Below, piece by piece: positions 5,091 to 8,614 of a stretch of 9,736 bases of DNA. A program made the position numbers and the translations under genes. The first letter of the stretch is position 1, and each line of letters opens with the position of its first letter. Origin of the DNA: Parcubacteria group bacterium Greene0416_79 (GTDB taxonomy: Bacteria > Patescibacteriota > Minisyncoccia > Phycocordibacterales > UBA10002); contig VMES01000012.1 of NCBI GenBank assembly GCA_007375655.1, positions 1 to 9,736 of the forward strand. Direction: 5' to 3'. The notes beneath the pieces were generated by a model. It searched no databases, was not told the DNA's origin, and saw only the letters and a list, made by a program, of their open reading frames with translations.

Positions 5091-5114
5091 TTATTTCTTC
5101 TTAGAAATAATCTT
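5087..5114. repeat. Perfect 12-bp-arm hairpin spanning the dcd stop codon
   Basis: The arms 5087-5098 (AAGATTATTTCT) and 5103-5114 are exact reverse complements around a 4-nt loop. The minus-strand stop TAA of dcd (5093-5091) and its last residues (KIISKKK) lie inside. The stem is AT-rich with no following T-run, so termination is unlikely. It may be an intercistronic hairpin in a dcd-thyA transcript. Confidence 0.75.
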
Positions 5115-5648
5115 TGGCGGGACATACCCCGCCACATTGTTCTTGGAGTACCGCCCGGTGTCTTTGTAACTCTGCTTCGGGGCAGACGAGAGCGGCGAGA
5201 AAGTGAGTTGGGCGATCGCCATGCCCGGGCGGATGATGATCGGCACATTGTTTAAGTTGCAGAGCTCAAGCGCGACTTGGAGAAAATGCCCGGGATTAAT
5301 GAGTGCCGCGCTGTTGTGCACCAAAAGCCCGATGCGCGCGAGCGAGCTCTTACCATTCACCTCAATCAAATAGTGGTCGGAGCCGAAGTAATCCTTGGAG
5401 TACCCGAGGATGGAGACCCGCGGATGCAGGACGAACGCCTCCCCGTCCGGCACCCGCACCTCGTGGGTCTTCGGAAAGACCTTGTTCGCGGGGTCAATGA
5501 AGCTCGTGGTATGCGTATCGTTCACGATGAAGGTATTCCCAAGCACGATGTCATAGCTCGCCGGCTGAAGCCGCGACTCGTTAAAGGGCTCAAGGATAAT
5601 GGCTCCGCGCTTCACCTCCTTTTTGATGTCTATATCCGAGAGAAACAT
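5091..5648 (-). CDS. dcd: dCTP deaminase (dUTPase-fold family)
   Basis: Deaminates dCTP to dUTP, the precursor of dUMP for ThyA encoded 29 bp downstream. It has 185 residues, usual for the family. Motifs are MFLSDIDIKK (1-10), EPFNESRLQPASYDIVLG (20-37), NGKSSLARIGLLVH (98-111), SAALINPGHF, the catalytic glutamate E128 in VALELCNL, and RPGMAIAQLTF (140-150). Some family positions differ. The usual RSSLAR is KSSLAR, HxTAxxxDPG reads HNSAALINPG, and the C-terminal KYxxQ-like segment is RYSKNN. Activity or bifunctionality (deaminase versus deaminase-dUTPase) therefore cannot be read directly. The ATG at 5648 directly abuts a 9-bp repeat array with no ribosome binding site. The last codons lie in a hairpin. 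Confidence 0.92.
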   Translation of the reverse strand: MFLSDIDIKKEVKRGAIILEPFNESRLQPASYDIVLGNTFIVNDTHTTSFIDPANKVFPKTHEVRVPDGEAFVLHPRVSILGYSKDYFGSDHYLIEVNGKSSLARIGLLVHNSAALINPGHFLQVALELCNLNNVPIIIRPGMAIAQLTFSPLSSAPKQSYKDTGRYSKNNVAGYVPPKIISKKK

Positions 5649-5701
5649 GATACCAGATACTAATATACTAATTGTACCAATGCTACCAATAACTACGAAT
5701 G
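5649..5701. repeat. 9-bp repeat array, plus orientation (left flank of the GxxExxY gene)
   Basis: About six degenerate units (GATACCAG, ATACTAAT, ATACTAATT, GTACCAATG, CTACCAATA, ACTACGAATG) run from the base next to the dcd start codon. The right flank 6089-6134 carries the same unit in the opposite orientation. The array supplies the stop codon (5693-5695) of the out-of-frame GxxExxY tail. Confidence 0.75.
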
Positions 5702-5851
5702 TTTCCGAGAATCAATACGGACAATGCGAACCGGTTTTATATACTTGTTTCGGAAATTAACCAGTAATGCTAGACGGATACCGCTCTCCTGCAAATAGCG
5801 TTGCACCTGTTCGTAATCCTCGCGGGTGAATATGCGCTTGGACTTTAGCTC
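5693..5851 (-). pseudogene. Out-of-frame C-terminal part of the GxxExxY gene
   Basis: Joining at the GAG codon 5851-5849 gives 52 residues starting ELKSKRIFTREDYEQVQRYL and continuing to LALLVNFRNKYIKPVRIVRI, then a TAG at 5693. This is the usual C-terminal half of GxxExxY proteins (ELK, then a helix, then LLVNFG-like and R-I-x-R-I segments). It is in a different frame from the N-terminal part because of the 7-bp duplication at 5849-5862. Removing one 7-bp copy would restore a protein of about 146 residues. Confidence 0.8.
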
Positions 5852-5862
5852 AAGACTCAAGA
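5849..5862. repeat. Perfect 7-bp tandem duplication (CTCAAGA x2) that breaks the GxxExxY frame
   Basis: CTCAAGA occurs twice in direct succession (5849-5855 and 5856-5862). On the minus strand the extra copy turns ATT CTT GAG CTA AAG (ILELK) into ATT CTT GAG TCT TGA, giving a premature stop. Seven bases shift the frame by one. Confidence 0.9.
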
Positions 5863-6140
5863 ATAATCTTACCGTCTACAAGAAAGTCAACAATATTACC
5901 ACTTGTAGAAATTGCCATTTCTCGCTTGTAAGGTATCCTTTCCTCTTTTAATCGTTCCTCTATGATATCTCCGTACTGCTTCTCACGGGCGTAAGGACCC
6001 AAAGTATTATGCGCAAAAAAGCACACCCCGGTGATCTCATAAGATAATTCTGGATAAATCAGTTCTGAACCGCCGGCATCTTTATCTTCATTAGTATCCA
6101 TTAGTTTCATTAGTACCATTGGTATATTAGTATCTGTCAT
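5850..6140 (-). CDS. GxxExxY-family protein (PD-(D/E)xK superfamily), frameshifted
   Basis: GxxExxY proteins belong to the PD-(D/E)xK nuclease superfamily; their cellular role is not settled. The open frame is 96 residues. LSYEITGVCFFAHNTLGPYAREKQYGDIIEE (32-62, the LGP..xExxY helix), then YKREMAIS and VDFLVDGKIILES match the family. The core should continue as D...ELK, but a 7-bp duplication stops it one residue after E95, losing the lysine. The remaining 52 residues follow in another frame. The first 18 residues (DTN, VLM, KLM, DTN) are encoded by a 9-bp repeat array, which also offers in-frame ATGs at residues 8, 11 and 14. The ATG overlaps the CYTH stop (ATGA). The copy is a pseudogene unless slippage at the duplication restores it. 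Confidence 0.85.
   Translation of the reverse strand: MTDTNIPMVLMKLMDTNEDKDAGGSELIYPELSYEITGVCFFAHNTLGPYAREKQYGDIIEERLKEERIPYKREMAISTSGNIVDFLVDGKIILES
6089..6134. repeat. 9-bp repeat array, minus orientation (right flank of the GxxExxY gene)
   Basis: Five units (minus-strand reading GATACTAAT, ATACCAATG, GTACTAATG, AAACTAATG, GATACTAATG) with a regular 9-bp period. Because nine is a multiple of three, the array is read through in one frame and encodes residues 3-17 of the GxxExxY frame. It is the inverted partner of 5649-5701. Confidence 0.8.
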
Positions 6141-6886
6141 TCAACAACGAACACGCGCTCTGTCCCATAATACTCTTCCCAATGCGTATTATAGAACGCA
6201 AACATCCGCTCTAGTCGTTCCTGCGGGAGCTCCGCGCAGCCGAGTTCCGCCATAAGCGCCTTGAGTTCCCGCCGCGCGTAGTCCGCTTCCCGTTCGTCGC
6301 CTATCATCTTCTCAAACTCGGCGAGGTAGCCATACCCCGCGTTTCTATCAATCGTGATGCGTATGGCGCCCGCGACATACTCCTCTCGTTCGCGCGACCA
6401 CTTCGCCTCGTACGAAAGCCCCGCGTTCAGAAGAATCTTGTCAAGTTTCTCAAGCGTCGCCGATGTTCTGGGGTGGGACTTATTCGTATGAGCGACATTC
6501 GTAGTGTCGCAATCCCCCGCGTTGTCGGCAACGGGGGGGATGACACACTCAAATTCCACTCGCGACACGCCGTTCGCGCTTGAATCATCCCCGATGGACG
6601 CCTTGAGAATAACGAATACGGCTCCGTCCGCCTCCCGCGTCCGTATTGAGACCCCGCCTCTCACATTCTTCACAATCTCCGAAAGTTCTCGCTGTTTTTG
6701 AGCTGACAAAAATGGTGTAATCGCCTTCTCAAAGACCGAAAGGTCGGTGGTGGTAGTGAAATAATGATTGAGCTGTTGGTGTGGAGAAAGTGCTTTAAGC
6801 GCGGGAAAATGTTCCGCCAGTCGGCTTTTTAACTCCTCCGCCCGTTCTTTGCTTCCGAGCAGTGATTTGATTTCTATTTCATACAT
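6137..6886 (-). CDS. CYTH-domain protein (class IV adenylate cyclase / triphosphatase superfamily)
   Basis: CYTH proteins form a triphosphate tunnel that acts on substrates such as ATP (to cAMP), thiamine triphosphate or inorganic tripolyphosphate. The metal-binding ExExK signature is at residues 3-7 (EIEIK). Other tunnel strands are visible: LNHYF (39-43), VSIRTRE (79-85), FVILKAS (91-97), VSRVEFECVI (107-116), KWSREREEY (162-170), IRITIDRNAGYGYLAEFE (175-192). The length is 249 residues. Residues 117-142 (PPVADNAGDCDTTN and on) look like an insertion between strands and are encoded by two small hairpins. Which substrate is used cannot be told from sequence. The stop overlaps the GxxExxY ATG by 4 bp. 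The start has no visible ribosome binding site. Confidence 0.88.
   Translation of the reverse strand: MYEIEIKSLLGSKERAEELKSRLAEHFPALKALSPHQQLNHYFTTTTDLSVFEKAITPFLSAQKQRELSEIVKNVRGGVSIRTREADGAVFVILKASIGDDSSANGVSRVEFECVIPPVADNAGDCDTTNVAHTNKSHPRTSATLEKLDKILLNAGLSYEAKWSREREEYVAGAIRITIDRNAGYGYLAEFEKMIGDEREADYARRELKALMAELGCAELPQERLERMFAFYNTHWEEYYGTERVFVVE
6492..6538. repeat. Two adjacent small hairpins inside the CYTH gene
   Basis: 6492-6510 is GCGACA, a 7-nt loop, then TGTCGC. 6514-6537 pairs CCCCC-GC-GTTG with CAAC-GGGGG around TCGG, with a 2-nt bulge. Together they encode most of a 26-residue stretch (117-142) that looks inserted between two conserved tunnel strands. Confidence 0.5.
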
Positions 6887-6993: not shown

Positions 6994-7869
6994 TCAGAAG
7001 AGGGTTTTACTGAAAGGTATAATCGGTGTCATGGTCATTATGTTTTCTTTAGAAAATCTCCCGGTGAATTCTCCGTTTGTCTTTCTCTCCTTGAAGGTCT
7101 TTTGTACTATATGCTTTTCTTTTTCTTGATTGAAAATCTCATTATAATCTTGTAATCGCGATATGCGCTTTCGGGCAAGATCTAAGTATTCTTTCGAAAT
7201 GTCAATACCAACAAAAGAGTAGCCGAGTAACTTTGCTGCAATTCCTGTTGTGCCGCTTCCAAGATAGGGATCTAGAACCACCGCTTTTTGTGTCTCTCCT
7301 AATATAGAAAAGATACAGCGTAGCGGAAGTCTCACTGGGAAAGGGGCAGGGTGAGGATTATTCCGTTCTGGCGGAAACCTCCAAATAGAGGTTAGGAGAG
7401 CGTGGTTTGATTTTAGCTCAGTACCTATTTTCTTGTTGTTTACAGGCTTATACAACCAATATATTCTTTCATCTACCTGCCAAAATCGCCATCCACGAAT
7501 ATTAGCTGCAATCATGCGGTCCCAAATGATCTCCTGCCTTACTGTCCATAGTGTTTTGCTTATCCAATGCATTGGATGAATAAGATCTCCTTTTTCCCAC
7601 CTCACTTTATGGTTATAGAAAAACGAACCGCCAGGTTTTATAACTCTGAAAAGTTCATTGAGAACCTCTATTTGTTCCATTTGATATTGTTCTTCTGTTT
7701 TCTTATCCGAAGATCCGACATACTTTACATTCTTTACAAGCCATCCTTTTTTATCTTCCTGTTTGTTGTAGGGAGGAGAAGTAACGCCAATATCTACAGA
7801 GTTGGTTTTACATCTCCGTAGAATCATCAGGGTATCTCCCAAAATAAACCGGTCAGTTTGATTTCTCAT
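6994..7869 (-). CDS. DNA methyltransferase, beta-class (N4-cytosine or N6-adenine)
   Basis: SAM-dependent DNA amino-methyltransferase of a restriction-modification pair. Catalytic motif IV TSPPYN is at residues 30-35 and the SAM-binding motif I DPYLGSGTTGIAA at about 200-212, followed by GIDISKEYLDLARKRI. Motif IV before motif I defines the beta class. An SPPY core is common in N4-cytosine enzymes but also occurs in N6-adenine enzymes, so the target base is open. FRVIKPGGSFFYNHK (74-88) and the central RGWRFWQVDERIYWLYKP are typical of the class. It has 291 residues. The ATG at 7869 overlaps the end of the upstream gene by 17 bp, indicating coupling. The gene is clearly more AT-rich than the housekeeping genes around it, which suggests transfer. 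Confidence 0.93.
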   Translation of the reverse strand: MRNQTDRFILGDTLMILRRCKTNSVDIGVTSPPYNKQEDKKGWLVKNVKYVGSSDKKTEEQYQMEQIEVLNELFRVIKPGGSFFYNHKVRWEKGDLIHPMHWISKTLWTVRQEIIWDRMIAANIRGWRFWQVDERIYWLYKPVNNKKIGTELKSNHALLTSIWRFPPERNNPHPAPFPVRLPLRCIFSILGETQKAVVLDPYLGSGTTGIAAKLLGYSFVGIDISKEYLDLARKRISRLQDYNEIFNQEKEKHIVQKTFKERKTNGEFTGRFSKENIMTMTPIIPFSKTLF

Positions 7870-8551
7870 GTAAGGCGTGAAAGAATTTCTTGCTTATGTA
7901 CTCTCTGAATCTTTCCAGTTCTACCTTTGAGAGCAGAAAGATTACTTTGAGATCTCTTGAAGAAATGTAATCCTTGAAGGTAAAACTTGCCGAGCGCAAA
8001 TAACGACCTTTTATGTGCCTTCCATCAGGAAATTGTTTACGAAGCTGTCTCTCCAATTTCTCACTGAAACTTCTGACTGCAAACGGGAATTCCAGTATAT
8101 ATATGAGTCTCCCATCTACAAAGCCGCTTACTAGAATATGGGGGTTCTCTTTTTTATCTTTTTTGAAGCGAGGGTAAGTGTAATCAGTAAAATTCCCGTT
8201 CCCGTTGAGTGTCGCGGGTTTACCTCGACGGGTTCCTTCTTGGTATTTCTGGAGATCATCGGTGTTGAAGTTTTTCGGCTTTGCCTCGCACGCAATAGGT
8301 GCTCCACCTATAATACTGCTTTGTTTGTAACCATTAAAACCGATCTTCCCCTCGCTATGTTCATATCCCGCAACAGTTACCGTTAGATACTCTCGCAATT
8401 TTGATGAGTTGTGGTCATTAATATAGGTGGTGAGCAGATCAGTAAAGAGCGACACTAAGGTTTCTTTTGAAGAATTGAACAAACGACTCGCAAACCGTTC
8501 GTGCGTATCTGTAGAATATATCTTAAGCACCTCGGCAAGTTCCTTGTTCAT
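7853..8551 (-). CDS. Putative type II restriction endonuclease
   Basis: No family is recognised with certainty. The role is inferred from the overlap with a DNA methyltransferase gene and from a nuclease-like core. EHSEGKIGFNGYKQSSIIGGAPIACEAKPKNF (residues 64-95 from the ATG at 8551) resembles a PD-(D/E)xK site, with the E-A-K pair at E89 and K91. The first acidic position may be replaced by N73 in GFNGY. GNGNFTDYTYPRFKKDKK and ILVSGFVDGRLIYILEFPF follow. From 8551 it has 232 residues. That start is chosen because an extended -10 (8566-8558) would place the transcript start at or beside this ATG; an in-frame ATG at 8569 would lie inside the promoter. Both genes of the pair are AT-rich. The protein could also be another accessory protein of the methyltransferase. 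Confidence 0.65.
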   Translation of the reverse strand: MNKELAEVLKIYSTDTHERFASRLFNSSKETLVSLFTDLLTTYINDHNSSKLREYLTVTVAGYEHSEGKIGFNGYKQSSIIGGAPIACEAKPKNFNTDDLQKYQEGTRRGKPATLNGNGNFTDYTYPRFKKDKKENPHILVSGFVDGRLIYILEFPFAVRSFSEKLERQLRKQFPDGRHIKGRYLRSASFTFKDYISSRDLKVIFLLSKVELERFREYISKKFFHALHEKSN

Positions 8552-8557
8552 GTATTT

Positions 8558-8566
8558 ATAATAGCA
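8558..8566 (-). promoter_or_regulatory. Candidate extended -10 promoter for a leaderless restriction-modification transcript
   Basis: The minus strand reads TGCTATTAT (TGn plus TATTAT, 5 of 6) ending seven bases before the ATG at 8551. The expected transcript start falls on or next to the A of that ATG, so the mRNA may be leaderless. No clear -35 was seen. Confidence 0.45.
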
Positions 8567-8614
8567 CATTTAGTATACAGGGGAATAACGCGCGCAGAGT
8601 ATTGAAATCAAGGC

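Follow-up and report, generated by a model that had tools for sequence, protein, structure and literature searches.

The GxxExxY gene of the window (the whole stretch of 9,736 nucleotides that was analysed, contig C86 of a 591-kb MAG with 113 contigs and 72.7% completeness) lies between two inverted arrays of short, oriented units. Mirrored arrays of this kind around GxxExxY genes are a real and general feature of Patescibacteria, and a less regular one in several other phyla. They recur among genomes and phyla with an inward polarity, are accompanied by gene-less hairpins, and co-vary with the protein. The arrangement and its coupling to the GxxExxY protein are well supported. On the best reading, GxxExxY is a predicted nuclease that has a hairpin-repeat population of its own, which it would bind and with which it is probably mobile. 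The window is interpreted, with a probability of about 0.6, as carrying one frameshifted copy of an element of approximately 480 bp, whose nuclease likely recognises the units and spreads the arrays as hairpins in a RAYT-like manner.

GxxExxY is, to our knowledge, a widespread family without a known role, and a literature search found no paper linking GxxExxY or PDDEXK_3 (TIGR04256, PF13366) to repeats; the name GxxExxY occurs in two papers, once in each. Short dispersed repeat arrays are a widespread and unexplained feature. The PD-(D/E)xK superfamily is known from repair, restriction, and CRISPR adaptation.

Structure of the element in the window

The left arm (5654-5701, plus strand) consists of five ACNAAT units with a spacing of 8, 9, 9, and 10, starts with CAGATACTAATATACTAAT, and has an inverted-flank z of 12.9. 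The right arm (6089-6136, minus strand) is an inverted copy of this array and also comprises five ACNAAT cores. The arms, of 48 bp each, form an inverted repeat with 38 of 48 columns identical and no gaps, and both start with CAGATACTAATATACYAAT. The first-pass annotation had described the gene as bracketed by inverted arrays with a common end pattern and almost nothing else between them; this is confirmed, and the GxxExxY gene is the only one present there. Its degenerate 9-bp unit holds as a repeated ACNAAT unit, but not as a plain 9-bp tandem, and not as a single type either, since the unit varies among loci and phyla. The 8-9-9-10 spacing is identical in the left arm, the right arm, and a tight hairpin that belongs to the same array family, contains no gene, and lies at the 3' end of glyA (2333-2432). 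Four arrays of at least three units are present in the window, compared with none in 200 dinucleotide shuffles of it.

The GxxExxY gene (PF13366; 5693-6140, minus strand) is broken. Its N-terminal part is the ORF 5850-6140, and its C-terminal half is frameshifted relative to this and ends at 5693 in the other frame. A gene start near 6101 is suggested by homologues. The frame break at about 5849-5861 (minus strand) coincides with a short tandem duplication at the ExK motif, and is either a real mutation or an assembly error of the 72.7%-complete MAG. The earlier description of a gene inside the arrays is confirmed, but this gene is frameshifted and not intact.

The right arm adjoins the stop codon of the CYTH gene and contributes in-frame ATG codons to the GxxExxY gene. 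The insertion site is flanked by the CYTH-domain gene (6137-6886, minus strand) and by dcd, which is dCTP deaminase-like (5091-5648, minus strand), and the order on the minus strand is MTase-CYTH-GxxExxY-dcd-thyA. Rfam gives a single match over the window (E 0.062, score 22.9 against a gathering score of 145.1), located away from the arrays. At 6994-8569, a DNA methylase gene (PF01555) is followed by an ORF with no Pfam, NCBIfam, or PADLOC match, and the two look like a restriction-modification pair.

The ORF 5850-6140 (minus strand) matches PF13366 with an E-value of 5.1e-7 and 30.5 bits against a curated cut-off of 22, which places it in the family. The NCBIfam model TIGR04256 gives the half gene 27.2 bits, below its cut-off of 35. 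An intact relative (L215) has 82.7 bits with PF13366. The catalytic residues E, D, E/D-x-K, and Q...Y are conserved and the predicted fold is Cas4/RecB-like, in agreement with the PD-(D/E)xK superfamily, to which the first-pass annotation had already assigned the protein. Among three GxxExxY proteins compared with PADLOC, one has no match and two have weak partial matches (best 1.5e-4 to PDC-M36A; 7.5e-4 to Cas4b).

Units, polarity, and folding of the arms

In the left arm of 38 loci, RCNAAT occurs 115 times and its complement never. Of the 109 arms with at least three units, 89 have a first spacing of 8, and the commonest patterns are 8-9-9-10 (22) and 8-10-9 (19). At least three inward units of the core RCNRAK are present in both flanks at 56 of 105 Patescibacterial loci, and outward units at 0 of 105. 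The control gives 1 of 337 ORFs inward and none outward. The core was derived from these same data, so that the core test is not independent, while the polarity is.

The N base agrees in 48% of cases between the two arms of one locus and in 33% between loci (0 of 2,000 shuffles), and the unit core in 95% and 91%, respectively. This indicates that the arms of one locus are related, and that the core is kept as sequence while the pairing is imperfect. Their behaviour is that of oriented, repeated sequence units with imperfect pairing. The arms overlap the start and the stop of the GxxExxY gene, and at 46 of 79 loci the innermost unit on the 5' side shares the reading frame of the gene, in agreement with an N-terminal MxTN consensus; the arm is part of the gene.

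As RNA, the element of the window has a better fold than any of its 100 shuffles (z -3.2), and the tight hairpin at 2333-2432 a better one than any of 200 (z -4.0). No excess of G-U was found among the arm mismatches on the sense strand (41 to 53 and 11 to 20). RNA-level selection on the sense strand was rejected for this reason. The pairing into a hairpin proposed from the first inspection thus stands as far as folding is concerned, but pairing of the sense RNA is not specially supported.

Occurrence in Patescibacteria

The arm score is the inverted similarity of the 260-bp flanks of each gene compared with shuffles (z), and single-domain proteins are those of 180 aa or less. The first sample comes from 148 order-level relatives, and 54 of its 57 PF13366 genes were scored, leaving out G000:C113 (at a contig start), G085:C51, and G044:C5. 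The second sample has 80 loci from named genomes, 20 of which repeat earlier genes, giving 60. Among order-level relatives, single-domain GxxExxY genes have z>5 in 38 of 45 and z>3 in 40 of 45 cases; among the 60 further loci the counts are 48 and 51. The total for Patescibacteria is 86 of 105 single-domain genes with strong inverted arms (z>5). The remaining 19 lack strong arms, which counts against the element reading, and none of nine long PF13366 proteins has arms with z>5.

Other ORFs in the same loci served as a control and have z>5 in 26 of 171 cases; by sequence, these 26 include two GxxExxY genes, eight four-helix-bundle genes, one RAYT-like gene, and direct neighbours sharing an arm. 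In sampled stretches, z>5 was found for 11 of 337 ORFs, one of the 11 with ACNAAT arms. These ORFs come from 20 stretches of 20 kb in five same-genus genomes, on contigs known from earlier matches and hence not strictly random. Strong inverted flanks occur at 3 of 99 small ORFs in these stretches, namely two 23S-IVP (four-helix-bundle) genes and one DUF559 gene. Y1 transposases, the positive control, have z>5 at 16 of 30 loci, with classical REP-like palindromes. The first outcome that the first-pass annotation had set against its proposal, arrays with no association with GxxExxY, did not occur (z>5 for 86 of 105 genes, compared with 11 of 337 ORFs and none of the nine long proteins).

Occurrence in other phyla

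A 4.0-Mb genome labelled Bacteroidetes (L277, G148) contains 19 PF13366 matches, of which 11 were tested for arms and eight have z>5. A 3.4-Mb genome labelled Nitrospirae (L219) has five matches, all with z>5. Another 29 Bacteroidota loci include 13 with z>5 and 21 with z>3. Strong arms are thus found at 21 of 40 Bacteroidota loci, and the 19 without them are counted against the element. The units at these loci are CACAGAG, CACGGAG, CGCAAAG, CACAAAG, and ACGGAT. At least three units of the core RCNRAK point inward in both flanks at 9 of 40 Bacteroidota loci, and outward at none (controls: inward 0 of 68, outward 1). In the Nitrospirae-labelled loci, the core test gives 0 of 4, although the arms have z values of 5.6 to 22.5.

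From a plasmid collection, six of eight matches were scored, leaving out H3 and H8. The copies of Bernardetia (z 6.9), Gemmatirosa (z 43.5), and Sphingomonas parapaucimobilis (z 12.8) have arms. Those of Treponema, Fusobacteria ZRK30, and Persicobacter have no strong arms, with z below 2, and these three of six also speak against an element. The Gemmatirosa plasmid (L351:2250-3030) has a whole hairpin of CCGCAGAGG-type units on either side of the GxxExxY gene. The armed gene of S. parapaucimobilis (L352:2471-2899) lies between fabD and fabG.

Hairpins of the source genome and coupling to the protein

The ACNAAT triple-unit pattern has 41 matches in the source genome, and the reversed-pattern control has none. 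In the stretches examined, the matches are mostly tight hairpins, seven including that of the window, together with three single arms. The association of the arrays with GxxExxY is strong, yet most arrays of this genome are gene-less hairpins. The source genome has five PF13366 genes (six matches, two being the halves of the window gene). For four of these genes the contig includes both flanks, and all four are enclosed by inverted arrays (z 10 to 23). The unit differs from locus to locus: ACNAAT in the window, and ACACGGAAG, AATGCNAATGCCG, and a degenerate form of ACGAA at the others. The fifth gene begins at a contig end. A result obtained with the ACNAAT detector, that the other GxxExxY genes of the source genome lack arrays, was overturned by the unit-free inverted-repeat test (4 of 4). 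Named Patescibacteria, including Taylorbacteria, Nomurabacteria, and Zambryskibacteria, carry close relatives of these genes.

Of the 31 genomes that carry a short GxxExxY gene, 25 have at least five ACNAAT array matches, compared with 6 of the 117 that carry none. After subtraction of six matches per gene copy, 16 of the 31 are still ACNAAT-rich. The six GxxExxY-free genomes with arrays are counted against the element. Gene-less arms match a GxxExxY arm of their own genome best in 25 of 39 cases (permuted mean 3.7, maximum 22 of 39), where neighbouring arms of one hairpin are not independent. This comprises 11 of 12 arms in the source genome and 14 of 27 in other genomes. The other 14 of the 39 arms are closer to the gene of another genome, again a count on the opposite side.

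On a tree of 142 proteins, many forks of which are open, the unit class changes 23 times, compared with 42.5 times when shuffled (0 of 500 as low). Within Bacteroidota there are 12 changes compared with 17.6 (0 of 500), and within Patescibacteria 9 compared with 9.9, which is not significant (53 of 500 shuffles as low). Across 86 Patescibacterial loci, arm similarity rises with protein identity (Mantel r 0.42; 0 of 2,000 permutations), a co-variation to which same-genus relatedness contributes; for pairs without shared flanks r is 0.41. The GxxExxY protein likely acts on the arms.

Insertion site in relatives

Twelve same-genus genomes were examined, one genome per species, so that presence and absence are compared between species. 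A close dcd is found in eight of them (nine loci); in the remaining four the match is weak or absent. All nine loci keep CYTH-dcd-thyA and lack GxxExxY between CYTH and dcd, and their CYTH/dcd spacers are 78-144 bp compared with 488 bp in the window. Among the same-genus loci compared, the site is occupied by GxxExxY only in the window. A CYTH-GxxExxY-dcd order universal in relatives, the second outcome that the first-pass annotation had set against its proposal, was likewise not found. In three loci of other genera that share the CYTH-dcd-thyA order (L054-L056), the spacer measures 11 to about 47 bp.

Most of the same-genus spacers contain a hairpin of short repeated units that differ by species, as read by eye. 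The units include TTAGGTA, ACCTAATT, and CACAAAAC in different species (L045-L052, L068). These hairpins look as if they had been repeatedly replaced. The glyA hairpin at 2333-2432 is also present at its place in G001, one of eight same-genus loci, and absent in the other seven.

Proposed movement and alternative explanations

The best single reading of the pattern is that GxxExxY moves its arms. The protein would bind the units, each RCNRAK core being one binding site, and would cut or nick the folded-back single strand or cruciform at the arms. Host repair or replication may then copy the excised or exposed hairpin into a new intergenic site without target-site duplication. The gene-less hairpins would be non-autonomous passengers moved in trans. 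The GxxExxY gene, called cargo at first inspection, is more likely the element's own enzyme. The overall interpretation of the first-pass annotation is supported, and mobility is the part that we infer.

No target-site duplication was found in 77 loci (2.44 compared with 2.54 shuffled), and old insertions may have lost it. Among 98 pairs with at least 70% protein identity, 62 share no same-side flank, a figure inflated by short contigs, and 36 do. At 12 of 105 loci the GxxExxY gene has one common pair of neighbours, prgI (PF12666) and the next conserved gene, with proteins from more than one clade (L010, L103, L104, L109, L201, L210, L214, L228, L232, L233, L247, and L261). The prgI site is a secretion-type locus; L207 shows the downstream neighbour only, and three more copies lie just past that neighbour. 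The gene after prgI has no Pfam match and is presumably TraC-like. This site is either an old residence or a favoured place. The 36 close pairs with a shared flank and the 12 genes at the prgI site indicate that much of the inheritance is vertical, and syntenic copies across families suggest long residence, so that movement would be rare.

These syntenic copies could also belong to a self-regulating nuclease gene with no mobility, its arrays being operator-like sites or mRNA-end hairpins and the gene-less arrays a regulon or former places of the gene. Arms that overlap the gene start and stop, an innermost 5' unit that is often in frame (46 of 79), and cores conserved more in sequence than in pairing (95% at the core, 48% at the N position) agree with such a gene. 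This explanation is nevertheless unlikely. A regulon would not be expected to place five inverted units on either side of the gene, to have hairpins in the orthologous spacer whose units change from relative to relative (read by eye), or to lack the gene at a conserved place in 9 of 9 relatives.

Y1_Tnp genes are present in 43 of 61 of these genomes, and inverted flanks were found at 16 of the 30 Y1 loci tested. The hairpins might accordingly be REPs moved by a Y1 (HUH) transposase, with the GxxExxY and four-helix-bundle genes riding in the loop. However, the Y1 genes are flanked by short palindromes of the classical kind that differ in sequence, the arm type tracks the GxxExxY protein, and G012 (90% complete) has no Y1_Tnp match, yet contains GxxExxY and matching gene-less hairpins. 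These observations make the passenger explanation very improbable, and a RAYT acting in trans was rejected because the Y1 genes carry other repeats.

Ordinary intergenic hairpins (terminators or mRNA stabilisers) that flank small genes by chance in compact genomes are hardly credible as the explanation: Patescibacterial spacers are rich in them (212 inverted pairs of at least 28 bits in 400 kb) and both window hairpins fold better than their own shuffles, but strong inverted flanks are rare at the sampled ORFs (11 of 337; small ORFs 3 of 99, two 23S-IVP and one DUF559), the sense strand has no G-U bias, and the polarity of 56:0, the fixed unit spacing, and the co-occurrence of gene and arrays in genomes weaken a simple terminator or mRNA-stability role.

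Relation to known systems and significance

A GxxExxY nuclease that moves its arms would work like REPIN-RAYT without being a member of it. As in REPIN-RAYT systems (PMC3116915), the gene is flanked by its own inverted repeats and each gene has its own repeat type, and gene-less hairpin doublets and single arms are scattered in the genome while the gene is mostly of low copy number. The likeness extends to target-site duplication, which is not seen for the GxxExxY element. The scattered inverted doublets match the repeats of the own-genome gene (25 of 39), and the resemblance to REP/RAYT with a different protein, drawn by the first-pass annotation, holds better than it could have known. The partner of REPINs is a Y1/HUH transposase, whereas GxxExxY is a PD-(D/E)xK protein (Cas4/RecB-like) with no Y1 partner. 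The GxxExxY arm also differs in having about five oriented hexamer units at 8-10 bp spacing in place of a single palindrome, and the gene lies inside the loop.

The intervening sequences (IVS) of 23S rRNA with an S23p/IVP ORF are similar in that inverted repeats form a hairpin of about 430 bp with a small gene in its loop, and in that mobility is proposed and unproven (PMC4990558). The Coxiella IVS paper records the idea that IVS were mobile elements with an ORF serving mobility. The IVS lie in 23S rRNA, are excised by RNase III, and encode a four-helix-bundle protein, whereas the GxxExxY element is intergenic and encodes another protein. The window has no Rfam rRNA match, and its element sits between CYTH and dcd and not in 23S rRNA. 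MITEs and their parent IS resemble the GxxExxY element in that short copies lack the gene but keep the ends of the form that carries it; the GxxExxY element, however, has no DDE transposase, and no target-site duplication was found for it.

Four-helix-bundle genes (TIGR02436/PF05635, the 23S-IVS protein family) also lie between inverted arrays, with z>5 at 23 of 30 loci and z>3 at 27 of 30. Their arms have units of about 7 bp, the best lag being 7 in 26 of 42 arms (counted in 21 of the 23 loci with z>5). Clusters of these genes are found at G000:C35, G008:C6, G060:C19, G001:C1, G005:C65, and G004:C42, and the loci L121-L150 often adjoin GxxExxY elements. At L197:4504-5291, a nuclease-like DUF559 (PF04480) gene lies inside palindromic CTCCCTTTACTAAGGGAG-type repeats, which is possibly a third protein-repeat pair. 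A small GIY-YIG-like frame, named by eye, lies between inverted repeats with a gap of 255 bp at L200:5245-5586.

GxxExxY genes and gene-less hairpins together are likely an overlooked family of mobile DNA, in which we infer the mobility. A wider proposal is put forward tentatively, with somewhat more doubt than belief. According to it, a PD-(D/E)xK nuclease that moves itself and its gene-less relatives as hairpins by means of unit arrays would form its own class of minimal mobile DNA, extending from Patescibacteria to Bacteroidota, Gemmatimonadota, and Pseudomonadota, and would be the source of many dispersed CACAGAG, CGCAAAG, and ACGAAT repeats. The 23S-IVS-type four-helix-bundle proteins with 7-bp units would be a parallel second class, explaining the origin of 23S IVS. 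The tie between GxxExxY and the arrays provides a likely substrate for the protein and a likely source for the repeats. The parallel with the four-helix-bundle IVP makes the origin and movement of 23S rRNA intervening sequences directly testable. If GxxExxY moves DNA, the PD-(D/E)xK superfamily would drive hairpin elements as an HUH enzyme drives REPINs.
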